Shown piece after piece: positions 1 to 10,248 of a stretch of DNA of 36,513 nucleotides. How positions within the stretch are numbered: the first letter of the stretch is position 1; the number at the start of each line of letters is the position of its first letter. A model generated the notes under the pieces. That model was given only the letters and a program-made list of their open reading frames with translations, made no database searches and was not told the DNA's origin. The DNA lies in contig JAFRJV010000104.1 of NCBI GenBank assembly GCA_017432075.1, forward strand, positions 1-36,513, in the 5' to 3' direction. Source of the DNA: Mogibacterium sp. (GTDB lineage: Bacteria > Bacillota > Clostridia > Peptostreptococcales > Anaerovoracaceae). Position numbers and translations under genes: made by a program.

Positions 1-6
1 AGTTCG

Positions 7-84
7 TGGGTTTTTCAAAACAGCGATCCCGCAATCTGTTGAAAACACTGGGCTACAGAAAAACGATGTTGGACACCTGCTCCA
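7..84 (+). ncRNA. 78-nt structured repeat, copy 1
   Basis: First of four dispersed copies of one intergenic element (others at 1290, 4052 and 8867). It shares TTGAAAACACTGG, a CTACA-GAAAAACGAT core and the terminal ACACCTGCTCCA with the other copies, and it has the same length when measured to the TGGG at its 5' end. This copy is the most divergent, and its outer stem (TGGG with CTCCA) is weaker. Whatever lies upstream is outside the window. I do not recognise a named RNA family. The orientation is inferred from the hairpin that follows. Confidence 0.5.
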
Positions 85-120
85 CTGAAAAGGGGCTTGA
101 TGCCCCTTTTCACGTGGAGC
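79..120 (+). terminator. Long hairpin after repeat copy 1
   Basis: GCTCCAC and GAAAAGGGGC (79-96) pair with GCCCCTTTTC and GTGGAGC (102-120) around a TTGAT loop, giving about 17 pairs with a small bulge. The 5' arm contains the CTCCA that would close the outer stem of repeat copy 1, so the two folds exclude each other. The T residues lie inside the stem, so termination efficiency is uncertain. Confidence 0.55.
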
Positions 121-124
121 AAAT

Positions 125-385
125 AAAGAATCGACCCTCGACGTAAGCTTAATTAATATGAGAGGGTTCGAATCGGGGTGGAGGATAGGACGCCACCCCG
201 AAAACCGCAGTCAAGGACGCCGCAGGCGCCGCGCAGCGGGCATGCTCCTTGACGGCGGGATATTCCCTTCACTCGCTCCATAAAAAATGAGCTGGCTTTG
301 CCAGCTCGATTTTTATGGAATGTGATCAGAGGAATTGAACCCTCGACGCCACGAAGGAGGGTTTGGATCCGGGCGAATAAAAGTG
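125..385. repeat. Hairpin-rich intergenic mosaic element
   Basis: This stretch holds no gene. It contains two related segments (129-180 and 330-396), each with a CCCTCGACG run followed by GAGGGTT and a GAATC- or GGATC-like end. GAGGGTTCGAATC resembles a tRNA T-arm, but no cloverleaf can be completed. Between them are three hairpins: CGGGGTGG with CCACCCCG (about 175-202), GTCAAGGA with TCCTTGAC (about 212-254), and TCCATAAAAA-GAGCTGGC with GCCAGCTC-TTTTTATGGA (about 278-320). The last could terminate transcription in either direction. The arrangement suggests a mobile or amplified intergenic repeat, which is an inference. Confidence 0.45.
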
Positions 386-457
386 AATTATAGTGGAAAG
401 ATGATCCCAGGCAAATGAATAGTTAGAAAACAAGAAAGCAACAAGGGGTTGCGTGCT

Positions 458-486
458 TTGACAAACTTTCCATAGTAAAATGAATT
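458..486 (+). promoter_or_regulatory. Possible promoter of the XRE regulator
   Basis: A perfect -35 TTGACA (458-463) is followed after 17 bp by TGAATT (481-486), which is a poor -10. The gene's ribosome site GGAGGG lies at 491, so the transcript would start very close to it. The -35 match is good but the -10 is weak, so this remains tentative. Confidence 0.35.
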
Positions 487-505
487 ACAGGGAGGGCGTA
501 TTGAT

Positions 506-1276
506 ATGACTACAAAAGATATAATATATGATCTCAGATCAAAGAGCGGTTTGTCACAGGATGATCTGGCAGAAAAGGTCTTTGTTACAAGACAGGCGGT
601 ATCACGCTGGGAAAACGGCGAAACAGTTCCTAACACAGAGACACTGAAGCTTCTGTCAAAATGTTTCAATGTTTCCATCAATACATTGCTGGGCTCGCCT
701 CGCCAGCTGATATGCCAATGCTGCGGCATGCCCCTTGAAGATTCGATCATCGGCAGGGACAAAGACGGAATGCTCAATGAGGACTACTGCAAATGGTGCT
801 ATGCTGACGGAACATACACTTACAACGACATGGACGATCTTATCGATGTCTGCGTCGGTCACATGGCAGAAAACGGTTTCACCGAAGAGCAGGCCCGTTC
901 ATACATGAAAGAGATGCTTCCTTCACTGGATTACTGGAAAAGACATGACGAACTCAGCGATGGCGGAAAGTTTGATGAATTCAAGAAGCAGCTTATCAAG
1001 GAAATAAACGATCTTCAGATTGAGGGAATGCCTGAAGTAGACGGCCTGAATGCACTCGTCGGGAGGTATGTCAATCTTGAGTATCCGCTCCCAAGCGGAC
1101 TTAATGTAAAATTTCTGGATGACAGCACTACATATCTTGGGAACCAGCTTGAACCGAAAACTGATATCGGGAGATGCTTTGGCATACTTGCAAACATTGA
1201 TTTCATTCTGGTGTGCACCTATGGAGAAGGCGGGGCTGATCCGGAGCTCCTTCTCTATAAAAAGAGACGCGGATAA
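506..1276 (+). CDS. XRE-family regulator with zinc-ribbon domain
   Basis: This 256-aa cytoplasmic regulator starts with a Cro/C1-type helix-turn-helix (about residues 5-60, with SGLSQDDLAEKVFVTRQAVSRWE typical of the family, recognition helix near 28-35). A zinc-ribbon segment follows, with Cys70, Cys72/73 and paired Cys95-x2-Cys98, matching the putative zinc-ribbon domain common in Clostridia regulators (Pfam zf-ribbon_2 type). The last 80 residues form a separate small domain of unknown role. The ATG is preceded by GGAGGG at a suitable distance. The fusion suggests DNA binding modulated by metal or redox state, which is an inference. The gene stands alone, followed by repeat copy 2. The HTH and zinc-ribbon assignments are firm; the target is unknown. 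Confidence 0.85.
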   Translation: MTTKDIIYDLRSKSGLSQDDLAEKVFVTRQAVSRWENGETVPNTETLKLLSKCFNVSINTLLGSPRQLICQCCGMPLEDSIIGRDKDGMLNEDYCKWCYADGTYTYNDMDDLIDVCVGHMAENGFTEEQARSYMKEMLPSLDYWKRHDELSDGGKFDEFKKQLIKEINDLQIEGMPEVDGLNALVGRYVNLEYPLPSGLNVKFLDDSTTYLGNQLEPKTDIGRCFGILANIDFILVCTYGEGGADPELLLYKKRRG

Positions 1277-1289
1277 TTAGCTTATGTGC

Positions 1290-1367
1290 TGGAGGAAATA
1301 AGAACAGAGTCTCTGGAACCGTTGAAAATACAGAAGCCTACAAAAGCGATTCTGTACATCTGCTCCA
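1290..1367 (+). ncRNA. 78-nt structured repeat, copy 2
   Basis: The element begins TGGAGGAAAT and ends ACATCTGCTCCA, with complementary TGGAG/CTCCA termini. The inside includes CTCTGGAACCGTTGAAA, identical in copy 3, and a hairpin TACAGAA...TTCTGTA with CAAAAGC in its loop. It starts 13 nt after the stop of the XRE gene and runs straight into a stem-loop. It could be the 3' UTR of that mRNA or an independent small RNA. Confidence 0.6.
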
Positions 1368-1375
1368 CTGAACGA

Positions 1376-1413
1376 AAGATCCCTGCCGGGCTGTTGCCTG
1401 CGGCAGGGATCTT
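1376..1413. terminator. Stem-loop between convergent genes
   Basis: AAGATCCCTGCCG pairs with CGGCAGGGATCTT around a 12-nt loop, giving a 13-bp stem. It sits between repeat copy 2 (plus strand) and the convergent minus-strand gene at 1445. Only short T-runs flank it on either strand, so it may act as a weak bidirectional terminator or as an RNA-stabilising hairpin. Confidence 0.6.
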
Positions 1414-1444
1414 CCATTACGCGTGACTGTGGTGATGGCTTATT

Positions 1445-1723
1445 TTATGCGGCCTTGAGAGGGCTGTTTACTCTTCTCCGTGTGATGGTTACATCATCAA
1501 TAAGGGCCTCGAGCGGTTTTGATTCGGTCATGAGACCGAGGATCTGTGTGGACTCCATATCCGCAAAGCATGTGGTCACTGTCCACTCGGTCTCCAGCTC
1601 AAACTCAAGCATATCGCTGTCTTTGCTGATGATTCTAACCTTATAGTTTTCATTGTCCCTGATTCCTGCCTCAGCGGCTGCCTTTGTGATGATTGTATAG
1701 ATCGTTGTAAAGCTGTTAGTCAT
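1445..1723 (-). CDS. Small hypothetical protein (92 aa)
   Basis: This is a 92-aa soluble protein of unknown family. The start is well supported: on the minus strand the ATG follows AAGGAGGAAAAAGAA. The protein begins MTNSFTTIYTIITKAA, has an acidic middle rich in beta-strand formers (VRIISKDSDMLEFELETEW) and ends in a short basic stretch (TITRRRVN). There is no signal peptide, membrane segment or cysteine cluster. It lies alone, convergent with the XRE gene and divergent from the response regulator at 2004. I cannot assign a function. Confidence 0.7.
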   Translation of the reverse strand: MTNSFTTIYTIITKAAAEAGIRDNENYKVRIISKDSDMLEFELETEWTVTTCFADMESTQILGLMTESKPLEALIDDVTITRRRVNSPLKAA

Positions 1724-1898
1724 TTCTTTTTCCTCCTTTATATTTGAGAGATTGTTTATCCTCTAAGCTCCAGCCCGTGTTGCCGGTGCTCTGTTTTCAT
1801 CTGATGGTTGTAGTATAAGACCTAAAATTAAGAGAATTATTAGAAACTGATCATTTTGAAAAAATAATTGAGCGATTTCATAAACAACATCCGGCTAA

Positions 1899-1926
1899 TT
1901 GAATTCTTAGAATTATAAGGTAGAAT
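1899..1926 (+). promoter_or_regulatory. Promoter of the first two-component system
   Basis: TTGAAT (1899-1904) and TAGAAT (1921-1926) are separated by 16 bp, in a strongly AT-rich tract about 80 nt upstream of the response-regulator start. The rest of 1735-2003 holds a GC-richer leader with a small imperfect hairpin (AAGGC...GCCTT near 1943) and no gene. Confidence 0.5.
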
Positions 1927-2003
1927 TATTTCTGTAACCGAAGGCAGGCGTGATGCCGCCTTGCCGGTGAGTCCTGTGTAATACGGAGAGAGGACCATAT
2001 AAC

Positions 2004-2678
2004 ATGAGGATCCTTGTAGTAGAAGACGAAAAAAATATGAACCGCCTCATCAGCGAGGCTATGAAAGATGAAAAGTACAGCGTTGACAGCTGCTTTGACG
2101 GGCGGGATGCTCTGGATTACGCTCTGGCAGTGGATTACGATGTGATAATCCTTGATGTGAACCTGCCTAAGATGGACGGCTTTGCCGTGGTTGAGAAGTT
2201 AAGGACCGAGGGGTGCATTTCGCCGGTGCTCTTTCTTACCGCAAGAGACAGCATAGCTGACAAGGTTGCCGGCCTTGGTGCCGGAGGCGATTACTATCTT
2301 ACCAAGCCGTTCAGCTTTGATGAGCTCCGCGCCGTGGTCAAGGTAATGGCACGCAAGTATACCGGGAACAAGACCGACGAGTATTCCATAGCGGACCTGA
2401 CAGTCGACACTTCTGCCAGGACGGTAGTCCGCGCGGGAGAGACCATAGAGCTGACATCGAAGGAGTTTGCCCTGCTCGAGTACATGATCCGAAACCGCGG
2501 TGTAGTGCTCTCGCGGGAGATGATAGAAGATAATCTTTGGAATTTCGACTATGAAGGCGGGACGAATGTGGTCGACGTATACATCGGTTATCTGCGCCGC
2601 AAGATAGATAAAGGCTTTGACAAAAAGCTCATCCACACAGTGAGGGGGACCGGCTGGGTCCTCAGGGAGGATGATTGA
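2004..2678 (+). CDS. OmpR/PhoB-family response regulator
   Basis: The receiver domain covers residues 1-115, with the acidic pocket Glu7/Asp8, phospho-acceptor Asp51 (IILDVNLPKMDG) and the conserved Lys102 (YLTKPF). A winged-helix DNA-binding domain covers about 130-222 (ELTSKEFALLEYMIRNRGVVLSRE, then VVDVYIGYLRRKID). The 224-aa length is normal. It is phosphorylated by the kinase encoded directly downstream, whose first codon lies 2 nt past this stop, so the two are translationally coupled. The GAGAGAGGA ribosome site and the upstream promoter fit this ATG. The signal sensed and the regulon cannot be told from sequence; CutR/QseB-like regulators are the nearest resemblance. Confidence 0.93.
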   Translation: MRILVVEDEKNMNRLISEAMKDEKYSVDSCFDGRDALDYALAVDYDVIILDVNLPKMDGFAVVEKLRTEGCISPVLFLTARDSIADKVAGLGAGGDYYLTKPFSFDELRAVVKVMARKYTGNKTDEYSIADLTVDTSARTVVRAGETIELTSKEFALLEYMIRNRGVVLSREMIEDNLWNFDYEGGTNVVDVYIGYLRRKIDKGFDKKLIHTVRGTGWVLREDD

Positions 2679-2680
2679 AA

Positions 2681-4024
2681 ATGTCCGCGAAACTAAGGCT
2701 GGCCCTATGGGTCACATTCATGGTGCTGCTGGTATCGATCATGGTACTTGTGTTTGTGCTGGTCATAAACAGACACAGTCTTCCGGAGGATCCGGCGGCA
2801 TATCTTGTCGATGTTGTTATAGACAATGCGAATGATGTTGAATTTGACAGGGGAACTTTTGAATGGGACGATCTGTCGGTCTATAAACGAGGCGTCTATT
2901 GCTCCTTTTATAACACTAACGGGGATCTGATGCTTTCGGCAAACAAGGAAGGCATGGATTTCTCCTCTGAACCGTTCATAGCGAACAAGATAAGGACGGT
3001 CAGTTCCGGCGGGCGGGATTTCTATCTATATGACACGTATGTGGATATGGAGGTTTCAGGGCTCTGGATAAGAGGTGCGACGTTGACTGACAGTCATCAG
3101 GGGATCACTGACATAATACTCAGGCTCACCATGGTGATGCTCCCGGCCATACTGATCATCACATTCCTTGGAGCGCTCTGGATATCATCCCGCACATTCA
3201 GGCCGATCGAAAAGATAGTCGAGACCGCTAATTCGATCAATGACGCTGACGACCTCACGGACAGAATAAACCTCAAGAGAGGCCCTAAGGAGATGAAACA
3301 GCTTGCGGGATCATTTGACAGGATGTTTGAGCGGCTCGAGAAGCTGTTTGAAGCCGAGCGCCAGTTCACTTCTGATGCATCACATGAGCTCAGGACCCCT
3401 ACGTCCGTGATACTCGCTGAGTGCGATCACGCGAAGCGCAAAGACAGGACGGCGGAAGAATATCTCGAGTCGATCGGAAACATAGAGGAGCAAGGGCGAC
3501 GCATGTCCGCGCTTATAGAGGAGCTGCTGGGTATTACAAGGCTGCAGCAGGGAACGGAAAAGTATCCGCTGAGAAAAGGTGATTTCAGCGAGTTCGTGAG
3601 CCTTACGGCGGAGGGCTTCGTCCCTCAGGATGATCGTGGGATACGGCTCGAAACGGATATCGAAGACGGGATCACATGCAGCTTCAATGCGTCACTTATT
3701 TCGCGCGCCATATATAACCTCCTGCAGAACGCGTATAAATACGGCAGTGAAAACGGATTTATAAAGCTGTCGCTCAAGAAGGATGGCGTGATGGCTGTTC
3801 TGAATGTAAAGGATAACGGGATAGGTATCGCTCCGGAGGATCAGGACAAGATCTGGCAGAGGTTCTGGCAGGCGGATCCTTCGCGGGGAGAGAACGGCAG
3901 CAGCGGGCTGGGTCTGGCCATGGTAAAAGAAATCGCTGAGTTCCACGGAGGGAGCGTGTCAGTAGCTAGTGCGCCGGAAAAGGGAAGCACATTCTCGCTG
4001 CTTATTCCGCTGGCGTCATCATGA
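2681..4024 (+). CDS. Membrane sensor histidine kinase (HAMP-HisKA-HATPase)
   Basis: This classical sensor kinase has TM1 at about residues 8-29, an extracellular sensor region of roughly 115 residues, TM2 at about 148-168, HAMP (about 170-225), HisKA with the phospho-acceptor His235 in FTSDASHELRTP, and HATPase_c with the N box (NLLQNAYKYG), G1 (DNGIGIA) and G2 (GSSGLGLAM). A TTG at 2675 in the same frame would overlap the regulator, but it sits only 4 nt from AGGGAGG. The ATG at 2681 is 10 nt away and is preferred, giving 447 aa. Repeat copy 3 begins 27 nt after the stop. The partner is the regulator at 2004. The ligand is unknown. Confidence 0.93.
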   Translation: MSAKLRLALWVTFMVLLVSIMVLVFVLVINRHSLPEDPAAYLVDVVIDNANDVEFDRGTFEWDDLSVYKRGVYCSFYNTNGDLMLSANKEGMDFSSEPFIANKIRTVSSGGRDFYLYDTYVDMEVSGLWIRGATLTDSHQGITDIILRLTMVMLPAILIITFLGALWISSRTFRPIEKIVETANSINDADDLTDRINLKRGPKEMKQLAGSFDRMFERLEKLFEAERQFTSDASHELRTPTSVILAECDHAKRKDRTAEEYLESIGNIEEQGRRMSALIEELLGITRLQQGTEKYPLRKGDFSEFVSLTAEGFVPQDDRGIRLETDIEDGITCSFNASLISRAIYNLLQNAYKYGSENGFIKLSLKKDGVMAVLNVKDNGIGIAPEDQDKIWQRFWQADPSRGENGSSGLGLAMVKEIAEFHGGSVSVASAPEKGSTFSLLIPLASS

Positions 4025-4051
4025 TAATAGTGGGGGAAATGAGTCAACAAT

Positions 4052-4129
4052 TGGAGGAAATCTGAGCAGAGGCTCTGGAACCGTTGAAATCACTGTCGTC
4101 TACAAAAGCAATTCTGTTCACCTGCTCCA
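4052..4129 (+). ncRNA. 78-nt structured repeat, copy 3
   Basis: It starts TGGAGGAAAT and ends TTCACCTGCTCCA, the same 78 nt as copy 2, with the shared CTCTGGAACCGTTGAAA. GAGCAG near the 5' end can also pair with CTGCTC near the 3' end, extending or competing with the outer stem. It lies between the kinase stop and the Bce-type regulator and is followed by a terminator that resembles the one after copy 4. Confidence 0.6.
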
Positions 4130-4135
4130 CAGAAT

Positions 4136-4170
4136 GGACTCCGGACAAGATCTCTGGAGTCCTTTGCTTT
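4136..4170 (+). terminator. Terminator after repeat copy 3
   Basis: GGACTCC (4136-4142) pairs with GGAGTCC (4156-4162), followed by TTTGCTTTG. It is close in sequence to the terminator after copy 4 (GGACTTCGG...CCGGAGTC), so this hairpin seems to belong to the repeat element itself. It probably ends the first two-component operon. Confidence 0.75.
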
Positions 4171-4209
4171 GTCAGAACAAAACAGACGACTCGGAGGTCT
4201 CTTCGTTTG

Positions 4210-4218
4210 TGGTATCAT
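4210..4218 (+). promoter_or_regulatory. Possible extended -10 promoter of the Bce-type operon
   Basis: TGGTATCAT is an extended -10 element (TGn plus TATCAT) about 50 nt before the start of the next response regulator, just after the terminator. No clear -35 is seen, which is acceptable for an extended -10. It is tentative. Confidence 0.35.
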
Positions 4219-4267
4219 TAGGCGAAAAGAGAAATACGATTGGCTGATGTGACATTGAAGGAAGAGC

Positions 4268-4957
4268 ATGGTATCAGGTAAGTATAAAGTGATCATAGTA
4301 GAAGACGACAGGGGGATCGCAGAAGGCATTGCATCCTGTCTCACAGACTGGGGAATGGAAGTGCATCAGGTAAGCGACTTCCGGCGTGTAATGGAAGTTT
4401 TTGAGGAATTCAGTCCGCATCTGGTAATAATGGATATCACACTTCCGTACATGGGCGGTTATCACTGGTGTCAGGAGATACGCAGGACGAGTTCTGTGCC
4501 AATCATATTCATTTCGTCTGCAACGGATAATATGAATATCATAATGGCCATGAATATGGGCGCTGATGACTATATCCCTAAGCCGTTTGACCAGAGCGTC
4601 CTAATAGCGAAAGTGCAGGCGCTGCTCCGCAGGGCATATGATTACAGCCGCAGCGCATTCACACTTGAGGCGGCTGGCGCTGTACTCAATACGGACGATA
4701 ATACGCTCACTTATAATGGCAGGAAGATAGAACTCTCAAGGAACGAGTACAGGATTCTTCTGATTCTGATGCAGAACCGGAATAAAGTTGTCAGCAGAGA
4801 GAAGCTCATGGAGGCGCTATGGGAGACGGACTACTTCGTTGATGAGAATACTCTGACCGTAAATGTGGGCAGACTCCGCAGAACTCTTGAAGAAGCCGGC
4901 CTCAAAGATCTGATCAGAACAAAATTTGGTGTCGGATATATTCTGGAGGCAGAGTGA
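4268..4957 (+). CDS. BceR-like response regulator
   Basis: This 229-aa OmpR-type regulator has its receiver at residues 5-120 with Asp13/Asp14, phospho-acceptor Asp56 (LVIMDITLPYMGGY) and Lys105 (YIPKPF), then a winged-helix effector (about 138-228, ELSRNEYRILLILMQNRNKVVSREKLMEALWETDYF). The DITLPxxGGYxWCxxIR signature and the gene order are typical of regulators of peptide-antibiotic ABC transporters (BceR, VraR/GraR-like). The start follows AAGGAAG at 6 nt. Its stop overlaps the kinase start by one base. The likely target is the ABC operon immediately downstream, where candidate direct-repeat sites are visible. Confidence 0.9.
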   Translation: MVSGKYKVIIVEDDRGIAEGIASCLTDWGMEVHQVSDFRRVMEVFEEFSPHLVIMDITLPYMGGYHWCQEIRRTSSVPIIFISSATDNMNIIMAMNMGADDYIPKPFDQSVLIAKVQALLRRAYDYSRSAFTLEAAGAVLNTDDNTLTYNGRKIELSRNEYRILLILMQNRNKVVSREKLMEALWETDYFVDENTLTVNVGRLRRTLEEAGLKDLIRTKFGVGYILEAE

Positions 4958-5919
4958 TGGTTTTGATTGGCTGGCTGAAATCGCGGTCCAAAGCAATAGC
5001 AGTCTGCGCCGCTGTCAATGTTATGTTTGCCGCATCATATTTTCTTTTTCAAATGCCCACAGTAGTGGTCTTATATCCGCTTATAGTAAGTGTGCTCATA
5101 TGCCTCGTGGCGGCAGCAGTTGACTATGCCTCATTCTGCGCGCGTCACAGGAAGCTTGAACACAACGAGCTTCCGGCTCCGTCCTGTCTGATCGAGTCGG
5201 ATTACCAGAAGATGATCGCTGAACTCGGGGAGAAAATGAAAAGGTCGGCGGCCGATGCTGCAGAAGACTACAACAACATGATCGACTACTATACGGTCTG
5301 GGCGCATCAGATCAAGACTCCGATAGCTGCCATGCGCCTGAGCCTGCAGTCTGAAGACACAGAAGCAGCAAGAAAGCTGACTGCCGATCTGAACAGGATA
5401 GAAGACTATGTAGAGATGGTGCTGACGTTCCTTAGACTGGATTCGGACAGCACGGATTACATTATCAGGGAATATGATCTCGACGATATGATTCGGACCG
5501 CTGTCCGGAAGTTTTCCAGGGAATTCATTCTCAAGAAGCTTTCGCTCGACTATGAGCCGGTGAGTTATACTGTACTTACCGATGAGAAGTGGCTGTTATT
5601 CGTTATTGAGCAGATCATTTCCAATGCGGTCAAGTACACTTCGGAAGGCGGTGTCAGGATCTATATGGATGAGCCGGGGATCCTTCGAATAGAGGATTCC
5701 GGAATAGGCATAAGTCCGGAGGATCTACCGCGTATATTTGAAAACGGATACACAGGCTTCAACGGCCGTGAAGACAAGCGGGCAAGCGGGATCGGCCTGT
5801 ACCTCTGCAAGAGGATAACGGACGATCTCGGGCACACAATAAGCGCTGAATCACAGCCGGGAGAGGGCACAGCCGTCATACTCGATCTTCGGACCGCGAA
5901 ACTCGGTGTTGAGGAATGA
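4957..5919 (+). CDS. BceS-like intramembrane-sensing histidine kinase
   Basis: The two N-terminal helices (about residues 13-32 and 36-60) are joined by only a few residues, so there is almost no extracellular domain. This is the hallmark of intramembrane-sensing kinases that detect their signal through a Bce-type transporter. The phospho-acceptor is His117 in VWAHQIKTPIAAM, followed by the ATPase motifs IISNAVKYT, DSGIGIS and ASGIGLYLCK. A GTG at 4954 is also in frame, but GGAGG lies 8 nt from the ATG at 4957, so ATG is preferred. The length (320 aa) is normal for BceS. The partner is the upstream regulator, and the sensor partner is probably the permease at 6796. Confidence 0.9.
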   Translation: MVLIGWLKSRSKAIAVCAAVNVMFAASYFLFQMPTVVVLYPLIVSVLICLVAAAVDYASFCARHRKLEHNELPAPSCLIESDYQKMIAELGEKMKRSAADAAEDYNNMIDYYTVWAHQIKTPIAAMRLSLQSEDTEAARKLTADLNRIEDYVEMVLTFLRLDSDSTDYIIREYDLDDMIRTAVRKFSREFILKKLSLDYEPVSYTVLTDEKWLLFVIEQIISNAVKYTSEGGVRIYMDEPGILRIEDSGIGISPEDLPRIFENGYTGFNGREDKRASGIGLYLCKRITDDLGHTISAESQPGEGTAVILDLRTAKLGVEE

Positions 5920-5937
5920 TTTCAAATGTGACAAACA

Positions 5938-6006
5938 TGTAAGATTAGTGTAAGCAGATCCGATGGAACGGCTCTGCTTATATTATTATCATCAGACTGT
6001 AAGATT
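5938..6006 (+). promoter_or_regulatory. Direct repeats and promoter upstream of the ABC operon
   Basis: TGTAAGATTAG (5938-5948) is followed directly by TGTAAGCAGAT (5949-5959), an 11-bp direct repeat like those bound by OmpR/PhoB-family regulators. TGTAAGATT recurs at 5998-6006, exactly 60 bp after the first. A -10-like TATATT/TATTAT lies at 5979-5986. The arrangement suggests activation of the transporter genes by the BceR-like regulator, but the binding is inferred. Confidence 0.45.
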
Positions 6007-6034
6007 CTTATAAATACGAGGAGGAATTACAGTA

Positions 6035-6799
6035 ATGAGTTTACTCGAAGCAAAAGGAATCAAGAAAACATACAAGACGCGTTTCGGCGGAGCGTCCGTT
6101 GAAGCACTGAAGAATGTCAATTTCACAGTTGAAAAGGGTGAATATGTCGCGATCATGGGGGAATCCGGCAGCGGGAAGACAACACTGCTAAATATAATCG
6201 CGGCACTGGACAAACCGACAGAAGGAACGGTCATCCTTGACGGTATGAAGCTCAATTCGGTAAAGGATTCTGATCTGGCCAGGTTCCGCCGCGACAACCT
6301 CGGTTATGTGTTCCAGGACTTCAACCTGCTGGATACATTTTCGCTTGAAGACAACATCTACCTGCCGCTCGTTCTGGCCGGAATGAAGCATGAGGAGATG
6401 GAGAAGAGGCTTGCGGCAATATCAGAGCCTCTTGGGATCGGCAGACTGCTCAAGAAATATCCGTATGAGGTGTCTGGCGGGCAGAAACAGAGGGCCGCAG
6501 TTGCGAGGGCCCTCATCACTGACCCACGCATCATTCTGGCTGATGAACCGACCGGCGCTCTCGATTCAAAGTCATCGGATGAGCTGCTCGATCTATTCGC
6601 AAAGGTGAATGGAATGGAACATACCATACTTATGGTCACTCATTCGACAAAAGCGGCGAGCCGCGCGTCGCGCGTAATGTTCATAAGGGATGGAGTCGTA
6701 TTTCATCAGATATACAAGGGCGGTGCCACTGATCAGCAGATGTATCAGAAGATCAGCGATACATTGACACTTCTCGCGCAGGGAGGTGACAGAAAATGA
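6035..6799 (+). CDS. Bce-type ABC transporter ATPase (BceA-like)
   Basis: The 254-aa ATPase has Walker A GESGSGKT (42-49), Q-loop (YVFQDFNLL), signature VSGGQKQR (146-153), Walker B IILADEP (166-172) and the D-loop (TGALDSK). The sequence is of the MacB/LolD-like subgroup that powers FtsX-type permeases without substrate transport across a channel. With the 676-residue permease it forms a complex thought to remove or detach cell-wall-active peptide antibiotics from their lipid targets (established for BceAB of Bacillus). The start follows GAGGAGGAA. The stop overlaps the permease start by 4 nt (ATGA). Confidence 0.93.
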   Translation: MSLLEAKGIKKTYKTRFGGASVEALKNVNFTVEKGEYVAIMGESGSGKTTLLNIIAALDKPTEGTVILDGMKLNSVKDSDLARFRRDNLGYVFQDFNLLDTFSLEDNIYLPLVLAGMKHEEMEKRLAAISEPLGIGRLLKKYPYEVSGGQKQRAAVARALITDPRIILADEPTGALDSKSSDELLDLFAKVNGMEHTILMVTHSTKAASRASRVMFIRDGVVFHQIYKGGATDQQMYQKISDTLTLLAQGGDRK

Positions 6800-8826
6800 A
6801 GACAGGACTCTATCCGAAACTGGCGGCAAACAGCATGCGCAAGAACGGAAGACTTTATGCACCATACATCGTGACATGTATCATGATAGTCGCTGTATAC
6901 TATATACTTCACTTTCTAGGGTATTCAGGGATCATGGACGGTATGCCGGGCGGACATACCGCAACCGATATGATGCAGTTGGGCACATATATAATGACTC
7001 TATTTGGACTCCTCTTCCTTTTCTATACTCAGGCAACGCTGATCAAAGGCAGAAAGAAGGAGTTCGGACTGTACAGCATACTGGGGATGAACAGATTCAA
7101 TCTGGGAAGGATACTGTTCTTCGAGACACTGTTCACATGGTCAGCTGCGATAGTCGGCGGGCTTATTGCCGGTATAGGACTTTCCAAACTGGCGGAGCTC
7201 GGGTTCACAAAGCTGATAGAGGCTCCTGTAAGGTATACATTCTCGATATCAGTCAATTCAGTGATCATGACAGTTCTTACTTACAGCGCGATCTTCTGCC
7301 TGATCTACATCAATTCGATAAGGCAGGTGGGCTTTGCAAGTCCGATCGAGCTGGTGACTGCGGACAAAGCAGGCGAGAGACCGCCTAAGTCAAACTGGCT
7401 GGTCGGGATCCTGGGCCTGGTGAGTCTCGGAGCGGGTTACTATATCGCGCTCAGGATACAGCAGCCTATGGCAGCGCTTATGTGGTTCTTCGTTGCTGTG
7501 ATACTGATAATGATCGGCACCTACCTGCTTCTGATAGCTGGATCGGTCATCCTGTGCAGGATGCTGCAGAAAGACAAAGACTATTACTACCGGACGAATC
7601 ATTTTGTGTCGGTTTCGTCGATGATATATCGCATGAAGAGGAATGGCGCAGGGCTTGCGTCGATCTGCATCCTCCTGACGATGATCCTGGTTATGATGTC
7701 ATCGACTTCGGCGCTTTATACAGGAGCGGAGCAGTGTCTCAATGTGCGCTATCCCAACGAAGTAGGAGCCTTCGCATGCAAGTACGGTTATGACGAGAAC
7801 CTTGAGGATCTGGCTGATAAGCTGGATGCTGATCTCAAGGCTGCAGCTGAGGAGCACGGTGCTGAAATCACGAATAATAAGACATATTACGAGTGGTCGA
7901 TCAGCGGCTATTTTGATAACAGCAAGCTGGATGTCACACTCAATTCAAAGTCGAATCTTGCTTTCATCAATTATGACAAGGTGGCACAGATACTGTTTAT
8001 CGATGCAGATGTCTACAACAGAGTATTTGGCTATAACGAGACAGTGGCTCCGGGTGAAGCGCTGGTAGGGACTGCAAAGAACATTGATATCGGTGATGTG
8101 ATAACAATCGGAGATGTTCCGTTCAAGGTCACAAAGAGGATCGATGACAGGATAGCTGAGATCGATCCGGCCGCAGAGGTCTCTGCATCTCCGGGGATCT
8201 TCATGATCGTGAATGATGTCAAGGAAGTAGCAAAGAACTACACCAAATACGCAGACTACGACGGCGAGCCGATGCTGGCATGGTTCTGGGACTGCCGCTT
8301 TGATACAGGCCTTGATGCCGATGAGCAGGTCGCGCTTGCAGATACTTTGGACAAACTGATAAAAGAAGAACTGCAACCGCTGGACTTTGACAACTGCTAC
8401 TGCGAGAGCCATGAGGCAGAACAAGGAGACTTCGTAAGCACATTCGGAGGGCTGTTCTTCCTTGGCATTCTGCTGAGCATCATATTCCTGGTATCCTGCG
8501 TGATCATCATGTATTACAAGCAGGTCTCAGAAGGGTTCGAGGATCAGTCGAGATTCGACATAATGCAGAAGGTAGGGATGACGAAGGAAGACATAAGAAA
8601 GAGCATAAACTCGCAGATGCAGACAGTATTTCTTATCCCGATAATCTTTGCCTGCATACATCTGGCTGTTGTATTACCGATAGTCAATAAGCTGCTTATG
8701 CTGTTCGGACTATTCGACATACCGCGTCTGATCATTTCTTCCGGTGTCTGTATCCTGATATGCAGCATAGTATATGCAGTTATATACAGAGTTACATCTA
8801 ATGCATATTACAGGATCGTATCCTGA
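6796..8826 (+). CDS. Bce-type ABC transporter permease (BceB-like)
   Basis: This 676-aa permease has the BceB layout. TM1 is near residues 20-40 and helices follow to about 160. Two helices (about 200-255) precede a further helix near 285-305. A large extracellular domain then runs from about 310 to 540, and the last three helices are at about 550-575, 610-635 and 640-665. FtsX/MacB-like segments flank the big loop. That loop is thought to recognise the peptide-lipid complex and to pass information to the kinase in the characterised systems. Length and neighbours (regulator, kinase, ATPase) all fit. Specificity (bacitracin, nisin, cationic peptides) cannot be predicted. The stop codon lies inside a stable hairpin. 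Confidence 0.92.
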   Translation: MKTGLYPKLAANSMRKNGRLYAPYIVTCIMIVAVYYILHFLGYSGIMDGMPGGHTATDMMQLGTYIMTLFGLLFLFYTQATLIKGRKKEFGLYSILGMNRFNLGRILFFETLFTWSAAIVGGLIAGIGLSKLAELGFTKLIEAPVRYTFSISVNSVIMTVLTYSAIFCLIYINSIRQVGFASPIELVTADKAGERPPKSNWLVGILGLVSLGAGYYIALRIQQPMAALMWFFVAVILIMIGTYLLLIAGSVILCRMLQKDKDYYYRTNHFVSVSSMIYRMKRNGAGLASICILLTMILVMMSSTSALYTGAEQCLNVRYPNEVGAFACKYGYDENLEDLADKLDADLKAAAEEHGAEITNNKTYYEWSISGYFDNSKLDVTLNSKSNLAFINYDKVAQILFIDADVYNRVFGYNETVAPGEALVGTAKNIDIGDVITIGDVPFKVTKRIDDRIAEIDPAAEVSASPGIFMIVNDVKEVAKNYTKYADYDGEPMLAWFWDCRFDTGLDADEQVALADTLDKLIKEELQPLDFDNCYCESHEAEQGDFVSTFGGLFFLGILLSIIFLVSCVIIMYYKQVSEGFEDQSRFDIMQKVGMTKEDIRKSINSQMQTVFLIPIIFACIHLAVVLPIVNKLLMLFGLFDIPRLIISSGVCILICSIVYAVIYRVTSNAYYRIVS

Positions 8827-8845
8827 GAAAACCAGGATACGATCC
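8813..8845 (+). other. Hairpin over the permease stop codon
   Basis: GGATCGTATCCTG (8813-8825) pairs perfectly with CAGGATACGATCC (8833-8845) around a 7-nt loop. The TGA stop is at the end of the 5' arm. No T-run follows, so this is more likely a 3' mRNA-protecting hairpin than a terminator; the actual terminator lies after repeat copy 4. Confidence 0.6.
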
Positions 8846-8866
8846 TGGGGTAAATCGAACGATAAT

Positions 8867-8945
8867 TGGAGGAATCTTAAATAGATGACTTGAGACCCTT
8901 GCAATCACTGGTGTTCAAAAAAAGCGCTTCTGTACACCTGCTCCA
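8867..8945 (+). ncRNA. 79-nt structured repeat, copy 4
   Basis: It begins TGGAGGAAT, keeps GCAATCACTGG, AAAAAGCGCTTCTGTACA and the terminal CACCTGCTCCA, and is one nt longer than the other copies. The middle (GACTTGAGACCCTTG) has diverged from copies 2 and 3, while both ends stay complementary. It lies downstream of the ABC permease and runs into a strong terminator. Confidence 0.6.
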
Positions 8946-8951
8946 TTATCT

Positions 8952-8985
8952 GGACTTCGGACAAAACTCCGGAGTCTTTTATTTT
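8952..8985 (+). terminator. Terminator after repeat copy 4
   Basis: GACTTCGGA pairs with TCCGGAGTC around a short loop (one G-T pair), followed by TTTTATTTT. This is a classical rho-independent terminator closing the Bce-type operon, and it resembles the one at 4136. Confidence 0.85.
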
Positions 8986-9331
8986 GCCTGGTTTCCTTGA
9001 AAACACAGCACTTAAGACATTCGTTCAAAGTCCATTCAAGTCCATACAGATCCGTGTTGCTGGGGTAAAATGGTGGATGGAACATAATAAATCAGGCTTG
9101 CAACCCTGTTGGTACCTAAAGTATCAAATCCGGATTTAGAGTACCAATTAATTGGTGCTTAATGAAAAAATCCGCTGATAGTTGTATAAATATAATATCA
9201 GCTATAAAGAATCCCATTACTGTTGATACCGTGACCTTCGGCAGGTCTTCGGAAATATCAGGAATCAAGGTTCTCAGGGAAGTGACACAGGATCTGGCAT
9301 ACAGCAATTATGAGAAAAGAGAGGTTATAAG
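8986..9331. other. Intergenic region without a supported gene
   Basis: No convincing gene is present. There is a short inverted repeat TTGGTAC (9109-9115) with GTACCAA (9140-9146), a tandem AGTCCATTCAAGTCCATA (9029 region) and an AT-rich tract with TATAAT (9191-9196) that may serve the downstream gene, although its -35 is poor. An open frame of 66 codons from 9162 lacks a ribosome site and overlaps the next gene, so it is not called. The region may be a decayed remnant. Confidence 0.4.
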
Positions 9332-10201
9332 ATGTACGGGGCGATTCTCGGAGATATCATAGGAAGCATCTATGAACAAAACGGAATAAAGAGCAAAGAT
9401 TTTGAGCTCTTTGGTCCCAATAATAGTTTTACAGATGATACAGTAATGACGATCGCTGTTGCGGAAGGCTATATGTTCTTCCTGCGCGACAACTATCCTG
9501 ACTTTTATGAGGGGAAGTCAGGGGATGGGGACGGATCCCGGAGTGCAGCACCATTCTCGATCGATGATGACCGGATCCCTGCTCTGAAGGCTTCGATAGT
9601 AAGAAGTATGGTATTCTGGGGGAGGAAATATCCTTATGCGGGATACGGCAGAAATTTCATCCGCTGGCTGAAATACAACCCGAAACCGTATTTCAGCTGG
9701 GGCAACGGATCTGCGATGAGAACATCATCGGCAGCCTGGATCTTTGATGATATTAATACTGCAAGGAAGATGGCTGCAGTACAGTCGGAGGTCTCTCACA
9801 ATCATCCGGCAGGCATCATCGGCGCAGAGGCAATAACATCTGCGATATTCCTTGCAAGGACCGGAAGCACCAAGGAAGAGATAAGAGATTACATTACGAA
9901 AGAATTCGGATACGACCTTGCCCGTACTGTGGACGGAATAAGGCCTGGGTACAACTTCGATATATCCTGCCAGGGAAGTGTTCCTGAAGCTATTATTTCC
10001 TTCCTTGACGGTGAGGATTTTATAGATACAGTAAGAAATGCAGTGTCTCTCGGCGGTGATTCGGACACTCTCGGTGCGATGGCAGGTTCAATCGCGGAGG
10101 CGTATTTCGGAGTGCCGGAAGAACTCAAGGCAAAGTGCGAGACATATCTGCCTAAGATGATGCTCGATACATTGCACACCTTCAGAAAACGCTGGCAGTA
10201 G
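9332..10201 (+). CDS. ADP-ribosylglycohydrolase family protein
   Basis: This 289-aa cytoplasmic hydrolase is of the DraG/ARH type, which removes ADP-ribose from proteins or small molecules using two Mg ions. The metal ligands are visible: GDIIGS (7-12), FTDDT (33-37) and GGDSDTLGAM (241-250, Asp243/Asp245/Thr246). HNHPAG (156-161) and GNGSAMR (124-130) are also conserved. A glycine- and acid-rich segment (about 61-80) is probably a surface loop. The ribosome site is GAGAGG. It leads a small cluster with a membrane protein and a HAD phosphatase. No ADP-ribosyltransferase is seen nearby, so nucleotide-sugar clean-up is as likely as reversal of protein modification. Confidence 0.9.
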   Translation: MYGAILGDIIGSIYEQNGIKSKDFELFGPNNSFTDDTVMTIAVAEGYMFFLRDNYPDFYEGKSGDGDGSRSAAPFSIDDDRIPALKASIVRSMVFWGRKYPYAGYGRNFIRWLKYNPKPYFSWGNGSAMRTSSAAWIFDDINTARKMAAVQSEVSHNHPAGIIGAEAITSAIFLARTGSTKEEIRDYITKEFGYDLARTVDGIRPGYNFDISCQGSVPEAIISFLDGEDFIDTVRNAVSLGGDSDTLGAMAGSIAEAYFGVPEELKAKCETYLPKMMLDTLHTFRKRWQ

Positions 10202-10248
10202 TTCAGACATGATATTGTCTAATAAATAATTAAAGGAGCCTGATAACA

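Follow-up and report, generated by a model that had tools for sequence, protein, structure and literature searches.

Intergenic repeats in a Mogibacterium contig as probable attachment sites of gene cassettes accreted at tRNA-Gly

Cis-mobilizable elements (CIMEs), which keep their attachment (att) sites and are without integration and transfer genes, are known to accrete in tandem, as described in passages of PMC5704250. In Dehalococcoides, islands lie in tandem downstream of one RNA gene, ssrA, and are bounded by direct repeats of its 3' end (28); a conserved 15-bp motif precedes the repeat, and 15 islands without an integration module are possible cis-mobilizable elements, according to passages of PMC3146451. 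Conserved tRNA genes also serve as targets of gene cassettes in the additive flexible genomic islands of Alteromonas (PMC4119200, PMC5217437) and Methylophilaceae (PMC10872708), and tycheposons are large elements (4–200 kb) bordered by a tRNA gene, with a tyrosine recombinase and metabolic cargo (PMC10872708), in the sections of these papers considered here. The present study concerns four short intergenic repeats in a 36,513-nt stretch of Mogibacterium sp. DNA (hereafter the window), which is the entire contig C16 of the draft genome G000 (2.75 Mb, 160 contigs, 83% complete). We propose, with a probability of about 0.88, that the repeats are attR-like sites, each closing the right end of a gene cassette, and that these cassettes, for the most part without an integrase, have integrated and accreted at tRNA-Gly.

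The locus and its relatives in the genus resemble CIME arrays in several respects. The junctions carry tRNA-Gly-like tails ending in GCTCCA, and the left end (LE) of an element stands either behind tRNA-Gly or behind a repeat copy. Blocks lie in tandem in the orientation of the target (in the window, G023, G016, G070 and G015; the orientation of the tRNA itself was seen on three contigs), and whole blocks are present or absent with precise ends, such as cassette 1 of the window, which is absent in G026 and G065. Unlike in the passages of PMC5704250, the blocks here go down to ~175–200 bp or single genes, several stand at one locus, and every junction retains a long, conserved arm-like region. 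The Dehalococcoides islands differ in using a tmRNA target and the serine recombinase DsiB (passages of PMC3146451), whereas here the targets are tRNA-Gly and tRNA-Thr, tyrosine recombinases are found nearby and a conserved region of ~60–85 nt precedes the tail. The arm-like region and the separate left end also distinguish this locus from the additive islands as presented in the passages of PMC4119200, PMC5217437 and PMC10872708. The kind of system is thus known, and the features that do not appear in the passages of these papers are a fixed-length arm region at the junctions, ~200-bp blocks in number, and one arm design on two tRNA targets.

The four copies (c1–c4) lie on the plus strand at 7–84, 1290–1367, 4052–4129 and 8867–8945, where a sequence-only reading of the window had placed them. 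Its statement of a fixed length also held: c2 and c3 are 78 nt and c4 is 79 nt long, and among 28 aligned copies from 11 genomes 25 are of 78 nt and three of 79 nt. The complementary TGGAG/CTCCA ends that it described are found in c2–c4 and not in c1, which is without the TGGAG start; this inverted repeat is real and its ends are conserved. As for the hairpin or terminator reported within ~10 nt of each copy, folding gives a hairpin after all four, and a terminator scan lists those after c3 and c4 only. A profile of 17 copies, with c2–c4 among its seeds and c1 not, scored c1 at 32.0, c2 at 80.0, c3 at 101.0 and c4 at 86.2 bits. The first copy, GTGGGTTTTTC, is a diverged putative att site of a subtype without TTGGAG repeats that ends in ...GGACACCTGCTCCA; its model match is limited to 16 or 17 through 84 or 85 (E 2.4e-8 against a profile model termed R1), the DNA before it lies beyond the contig edge, and a resembling subtype occurs also in loci L154 and L143. 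The other three would form the right ends of cassettes 1, 2 and 3, respectively. The 5' part of the repeat consists of TTGGAG direct repeats (two units) and the motif TTGmAAnnACwG, which recurs in the LE; in appearance it is a recombinase arm region with constant spacing. For c3, a diverged first arm repeat starts near 4031 and the first arm repeat of c4 lies near 8846; for c2, the upstream TTGGAG repeat present in G004 is missing. The 36.5-kb window contains the sequence TTGMAANNACWG at five places, exclusively on the plus strand, once per copy and once in the LE after c4 (8997), against a mean of 0.26 in 200 mononucleotide shuffles.

Each copy closes with ~20 nt that correspond to the 3' end of the tRNA-Gly(CCC) of the genus, and the copies of relatives have the tail GATTCnnTTCACCYGCTCCA. 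The common 3' half of tRNA-Gly(CCC) is AAGCTTACGTCGAGGGTTCGATTCCCTTCACCYGCTCCA; ARAGORN called this tRNA in 13 of 25 loci in one set and in 14 of 15 in another, and the pattern TTCGAWTCCNNTCACCYGCTCCA, allowing up to two mismatches, was found in 44 of the 47 genus genomes, some matches being other tRNAs. On all three contigs seen with both an intact tRNA-Gly and copies (G015:C51, G069:C33 and G035:C27), the copies lie downstream of the tRNA gene in its orientation. Separately, at L099 (~3010–3070, G065:C21) and L155 (~1412–1510, G024:C25) broken copies are joined to an inverted, decayed tRNA-Gly half; the break in L099 falls at the second TTGGAG, as if TGGAG had been the exchange point in inverted orientation.

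When copies are set side by side, the same upstream DNA is found with different downstream DNA, and the reverse. We scored the flanks of 38 Gly-type copies, a hand-assembled list that excludes some truncated copies (e.g. those of G035:C59, G024:C25 and G065:C18) and the tRNA-Thr type, with a threshold of 70 against a null maximum of 27. Among the 703 pairs, 46 share a flank and 584 share none, 73 being unscorable owing to too short a flank. One-sided sharing accounts for 37 of the 46 (16 upstream only, 21 downstream only). In the upstream-only pairs the ungapped identity is 0.93 at positions −12 to −7 and 0.98 in GCTCCA, then 0.49, 0.42 and 0.26; in the downstream-only pairs it is 0.54, 0.64 (−23 to −13), 0.85 (−12 to −7) and 0.98 in GCTCCA, then 0.64, 0.59 and 0.60; and in all other pairs, taken as background, it is 0.49, 0.65, 0.77 (−12 to −7) and 0.98 in GCTCCA, then 0.35, 0.39 and 0.32. 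These profiles by position point to an exchange within about the last 12 nt, CACCYGCTCCA, and in the comparison the whole repeat travels with the upstream block. Cassette 1 (281–1367, 1087 bp) is absent at this place from G026 and G065 to within ~5 nt, since window positions 181–280 joined to 1368–1467 align continuously to both. In BLAST comparisons, G023 and G004 match the window up to 1367, where c2 has its final A, and G026 and G065 match it from 1371 onwards.

A second conserved end, the left end, was also recognized. An LE profile was built from ten examples cut directly after GCTCCA, and at E ≤ 0.001 it gave 21 matches in the loci searched, ten of them the seeds; 18 of the 21 start exactly after GCTCCA. 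Among the 11 non-seed matches, nine start exactly there, one lies 5 nt later (L095) and one is without a preceding GCTCCA (L099). Six LEs stand behind an ARAGORN-called tRNA-Gly (L055, L067, L082, L090, L091 and L092), one behind a tRNA 3' end at a contig end (L057), and eight of the other exact-start matches behind repeat copies. An LE contains a terminator-like hairpin and a TTGAAAACACTG-like motif, and in eight of the ten seeds one to four AGTCCA units ~10 bp apart, none being found in G015_3 and G070_3. The LE in the window (8946–9060, plus strand), which would open the element behind c4, has the hairpin (8952–8977 in the terminator scan), the TTGAAAACACAG motif (8997) and two AGTCCA repeats; it matches the profile at 8949–9059 with 91.5 bits, being itself among the ten seeds. 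The TTGGAG units of the repeat, the motif common to both ends and the AGTCCA units of the LE may represent recombinase arm sites, judging from the anatomy of the ends.

Tyrosine integrases are encoded near some of the sites. In G023, a 387-aa integrase (PF00589, 91.1 bits) ends ~176 nt before the first of four copies. A 79% identical integrase lies ~1.3 kb before a truncated copy in G065:C18, in G026:C54 a fragment of 80% identity lies immediately next to a copy, and another fragment lies ~1 kb from a truncated copy in G024:C25. Homologues of the G023 type were found at E ≤ 1e-30 in 21 of the 47 genomes. The G023-type integrase is one candidate for the cognate recombinase, besides the 393-aa integrase considered below.

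A putative mechanism can be proposed on this basis. A tyrosine recombinase would bind the arm sites, namely the TTGGAG pair, the TTGmAAnnACwG motif and the AGTCCA repeats, and would join the 3' end of the tRNA gene with the same sequence on a circular element. The site would thereby be rebuilt at each junction, and because of this the elements could pile up in tandem downstream of the tRNA gene. Most of them would have lost an integrase or never had one, and would therefore be cis-mobilizable elements or cassettes moved by an integrase acting in trans. Transcripts arriving from upstream, be it from the tRNA or from a gene, would be terminated by the hairpin or terminator with which a block begins. 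The constant length with variable middles would follow from the fixed spacing of the arm repeats and the crossover core.

Several observations weigh against this proposal. In G000, an 83% complete draft, no intact tRNA-Gly(CCC) with this end was found, and thus the tRNA-Gly cannot be placed beside the window. Only four places of a G023-type integrase lie within ~1.5 kb of a Gly-type copy, two of them fragments; by eye, a full copy within the 420 nt behind the integrase gene is seen in G023 alone, and no contig was found to carry a complete element comprising LE, integrase and right end. In nine of the 46 pairs both flanks are shared, and six of these nine come from four near-identical places in four genomes. 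c2 differs from the copies G023_3 and G004_2 inside the tRNA-like part, which suggests that the exchange point may vary over ~20 nt, and the empty junction of G065 is imperfect, reading GCT and then diverging, without CCA. The blocks after c2 and c3 open with hairpins that fail to match the LE profile, and the left ends are thus diverse or decayed. The material itself consists mostly of draft assemblies; several copies stand at contig ends, the likeliest positions for assembly errors, and L144 and L145, being one genome, give the same copies twice. Model R1 matches 37 places at E ≤ 1e-10 in 15 of the 47 genus genomes, of which 28 themselves built the model and match their own profile by construction.

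A broader reading, which we regard as a tentative possibility, is a genus-wide, integron-like capture system on tRNA 3' ends, in which each small gene cassette would carry one ~105-nt site (arm repeats, TTGmAAnnACwG and tRNA tail), the tRNA gene would be the primary site, tyrosine integrases would act in trans, and retargeting between tRNA-Gly and tRNA-Thr would proceed mainly by a swap of the tail. A parallel set of copies, which also counts in favour of the attachment-site proposal, consists of weaker model matches that end in ATCAGCTCCA and have tails matching the 3' end of tRNA-Thr(CGT). At L141, the tRNA-Thr(CGT) gene, ending in GGGTTCGACTCCCCCCATCAGCTCCA, adjoins an integrase. Copies of this type also precede hairpins and switch partners (L144, L145, L152, L153 and L158), and the sequence that follows the L140 copy (GAAATTGGTCTCCG..., GAAATTGGTCTCCGAAACCGGAGACC) is similar to the one following the tRNA-Thr gene at L141, mirroring the Gly case. 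Directly behind the copies at L139 and L140 lies a 453-aa open reading frame (ORF) of a tyrosine integrase, its Pfam identification having been done on the L139 ORF. Separately, at L181, L188 and L189, tails like GTGTCCTCCGCCA, which we take to be tRNA-Ser-like, stand downstream of other integrase homologues; L188 has the TTGAAATTACTG motif inverted nearby. These tails possibly mark a third target of related elements.

Integron attC sites have the cores GTTRRRY and RYYYAAC. In integrons, one recombination site lies at the 3' end of each cassette, the orientation is uniform and the exchange takes place near the end of the site (in part in passages of PMC4119200). The arrays in this genus share one site per cassette at the 3' end, a single orientation and an exchange near the site end; they differ in that the exchange end is GCTCCA rather than an attC core, that a tRNA gene is the primary site and that there is no sign of a folded site. 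An integron in the proper sense was rejected. The exchange end GCTCCA, from which 2 of 38 copies depart by a single base, does not correspond to the attC cores, as read from alignments with no separate attC search, and the integrases of G023, L139 and L083 score 43.9, 21.9 and 25.6 bits against the integron-integrase model TIGR02249, whose cut-off is 265. A tycheposon was likewise rejected: the tRNA target, the tyrosine recombinase and the metabolic cargo are alike, whereas the blocks in the window measure 0.2–4.8 kb and none of the eight integrase places of G000 is on contig C16, in contrast to a large element with its own recombinase.

The cassettes could instead be moved by a second enzyme at the same tRNA, which we consider unlikely. 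A 393-aa integrase lies behind an intact tRNA-Gly(CCC), facing it, at L083 (G026:C45) and L084 (G024:C20). The islands concerned have a further tRNA 3' half of ~37 bp as their boundary, and the one in G026 includes a MobA/MobL-type gene. Given this placement at an intact tRNA-Gly in bounded islands, the 393-aa integrase probably recombines the same tRNA end. Against this enzyme, the tRNA 3' half at which these islands end is a plain one, and the TTGGAG/TTGmAAnnACwG region that marks the cassettes is missing there.

Homologous recombination or unequal crossing-over between repeats would also shuffle blocks, since many pairs of copies are alike enough for RecA-type exchange, and one arm repeat of c2 was apparently lost through direct-repeat deletion. 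Such exchange points should nevertheless scatter over the 78 nt, whereas upstream blocks tend to keep their repeat in full, and behind intact tRNA genes without any repeat, left ends likewise begin directly after GCTCCA. We therefore judge this explanation very unlikely, compared with site-specific integration at the tRNA end.

The sequence-only reading had offered a small RNA, a regulator in the 3' untranslated region (UTR) and a non-autonomous mobile element as options, and had taken the constant length with diverged middles to point to selection on structure. The length is indeed constant, the TGGAG/CTCCA ends can pair and are conserved, and c2–c4 sit 14, 28 and 41 nt, respectively, past stop codons (at 1276, 4024 and 8826) and ahead of hairpins. 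The covariation test that it had suggested nonetheless gave no covariation in either stem. On the 28 copies, RNAalifold predicted a single helix of five pairs, TGGAG with CTCCA, at −2.33 kcal/mol and free of compensatory changes, and the covariation of a 12-pair structure (the outer helix plus an inner GAACAGA/TCTGTTC helix) was 0.080 against 0.076 in shuffles, 135 of 500 being as high. Across the aligned copies the outer helix pairs in 97.1% and the inner helix in 70.9% of the cells. Folded by themselves, the 83-nt copies do not stand out from shuffles (z −1.08 to +0.86), and the lower values obtained when the hairpin behind is included (z −1.51 to −4.29) arise because the hairpin itself accounts for the stability. 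Rfam gave no match at gathering thresholds over the whole window, and at E ≤ 10 over 1–9300 it gave four sub-threshold matches, none on a copy and none convincing. Moreover, the tail is a tRNA 3' end and the flanks change at the end of the repeat. The RNA explanation is thus largely refuted already and highly improbable, the constant length being accounted for instead by the fixed arm-to-core spacing; the closest of the earlier options was a mobile element, with the amendment that the repeat would be the attachment site ending each mobile block and not the element itself. A non-autonomous transposon (miniature inverted-repeat transposable element) with TGGAG/CTCCA as terminal inverted repeats scarcely merits credence, for all the 5-bp inverted ends and the repeated, partly degenerate copies: the right end is tRNA sequence, what comes and goes is blocks of 0.2–13 kb and not the repeat, and the neighbour in the places compared is always the same GCTCCA, with no varied targets.

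Two other readings of the repeat were rejected. c2 and c3 are readable in one frame from TTG as coding sequence, yet most of their differences alter a residue and c4 is frame-shifted (by eye, unscored). As to a tRNA gene, ARAGORN called none in the window or in a set of 26 loci, and the repeats hold the tRNA 3' end only.

The variable region of the window spans 1–10231, and homology to G026 and G065 resumes at 10232. Behind c1 lies a ~200-bp block between two GCTCCA ends (Unit X, 85–280, plus strand), to which no gene was assigned. A hairpin forms its beginning, a decayed tRNA-Gly 3' half lies inverted within it (~112–155, minus strand), and it ends in ...TATTCCCTTCACTCGCTCCA, its end (258–280) being also a decayed tRNA-Gly half. 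The block recurs in more than one genome; related stretches occur in L072, L079, L081 and L154, and partial ones in L077 and L099. Cassettes 1–3 follow on the plus strand. Cassette 1 contains a regulator gene (506–1276), its families (HTH_3/Zn_ribbon_2) assigned via the G023 homologue, and c2. Cassette 2 (1368–4129) contains a response regulator (2004–2678) named by eye, a histidine kinase (2675–4024) named by family search, a small ORF and c3. The small ORF, of 92 aa, lies at its start (1445–1723, minus strand) and had no Pfam match; G016 carries a counterpart, and window 368–8985 is 93.8% identical to G016. Cassette 3 (4130–8945) opens with a terminator-like hairpin (4136–4162, plus strand, in the terminator scan) and contains a response regulator and an ABC ATPase, both named by eye, a histidine kinase and an FtsX-type permease (family search), and c4; we presume this gene set to be BceRS-AB-like. 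No match to cassette 3 was found in the G065 and G026 stretches compared. A long near-perfect hairpin was noticed by eye at 8805–8850, where it overlaps the end of the permease gene just before c4. The remainder of the variable region (9061–10231, plus strand), behind the LE, contains an ADP-ribosylglycohydrolase gene (9332–10201). Elsewhere, the cargo of cassettes and array blocks includes Fic, SUKH, AAA_14/DUF4143 and YhcG-type proteins.

Among the collections searched, the repeat variant was found only in this genus. At E ≤ 0.01, model R1 had some match in 38 of the 47 genus genomes; we used the 37 strong places and individually inspected weaker ones and dropped the remainder, most dropped matches (E 1e-3 to 1e-2) being probably chance. 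At E 1e-5 the model matched 2 of 198 order genomes, G000 and G023, both of the genus, and gave none in the genus member G005, strict filters losing weak matches. An 84-bp BLAST query matched 11 of 60 genomes, all in the genus and G000 included, and a degenerate pattern matched eight stretches in a contig collection, four from Mogibacterium sp. and four from an uncultured Clostridiales bacterium. A phage or plasmid origin was rejected, window 8840–9070 having no match at E 0.01 in 50,697 phage and 72,556 plasmid records, and outside the genus no copy was found in the order sample, the BLASTed order members, or the phage and plasmid records.

Under the proposed model, a GCTCCA junction in these genomes would mark the gain or loss of a gene block, and the case illustrates that a fixed-length, partly conserved intergenic repeat before terminators can pass for a small RNA. 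Should a single integrase move the cassettes in trans, gut Clostridia would possess a simple system of cassette capture that is not an integron. The blocks range from single regulators to a 12.8-kb stretch in G015:C51 (L082, 6808–19598), between tRNA-Gly and the first copy, which reads by eye as an aromatic amino acid (shikimate) operon. The right end of this stretch is also present, with the same flanks, in G017, G009 and G035 (L149, L150 and L157).

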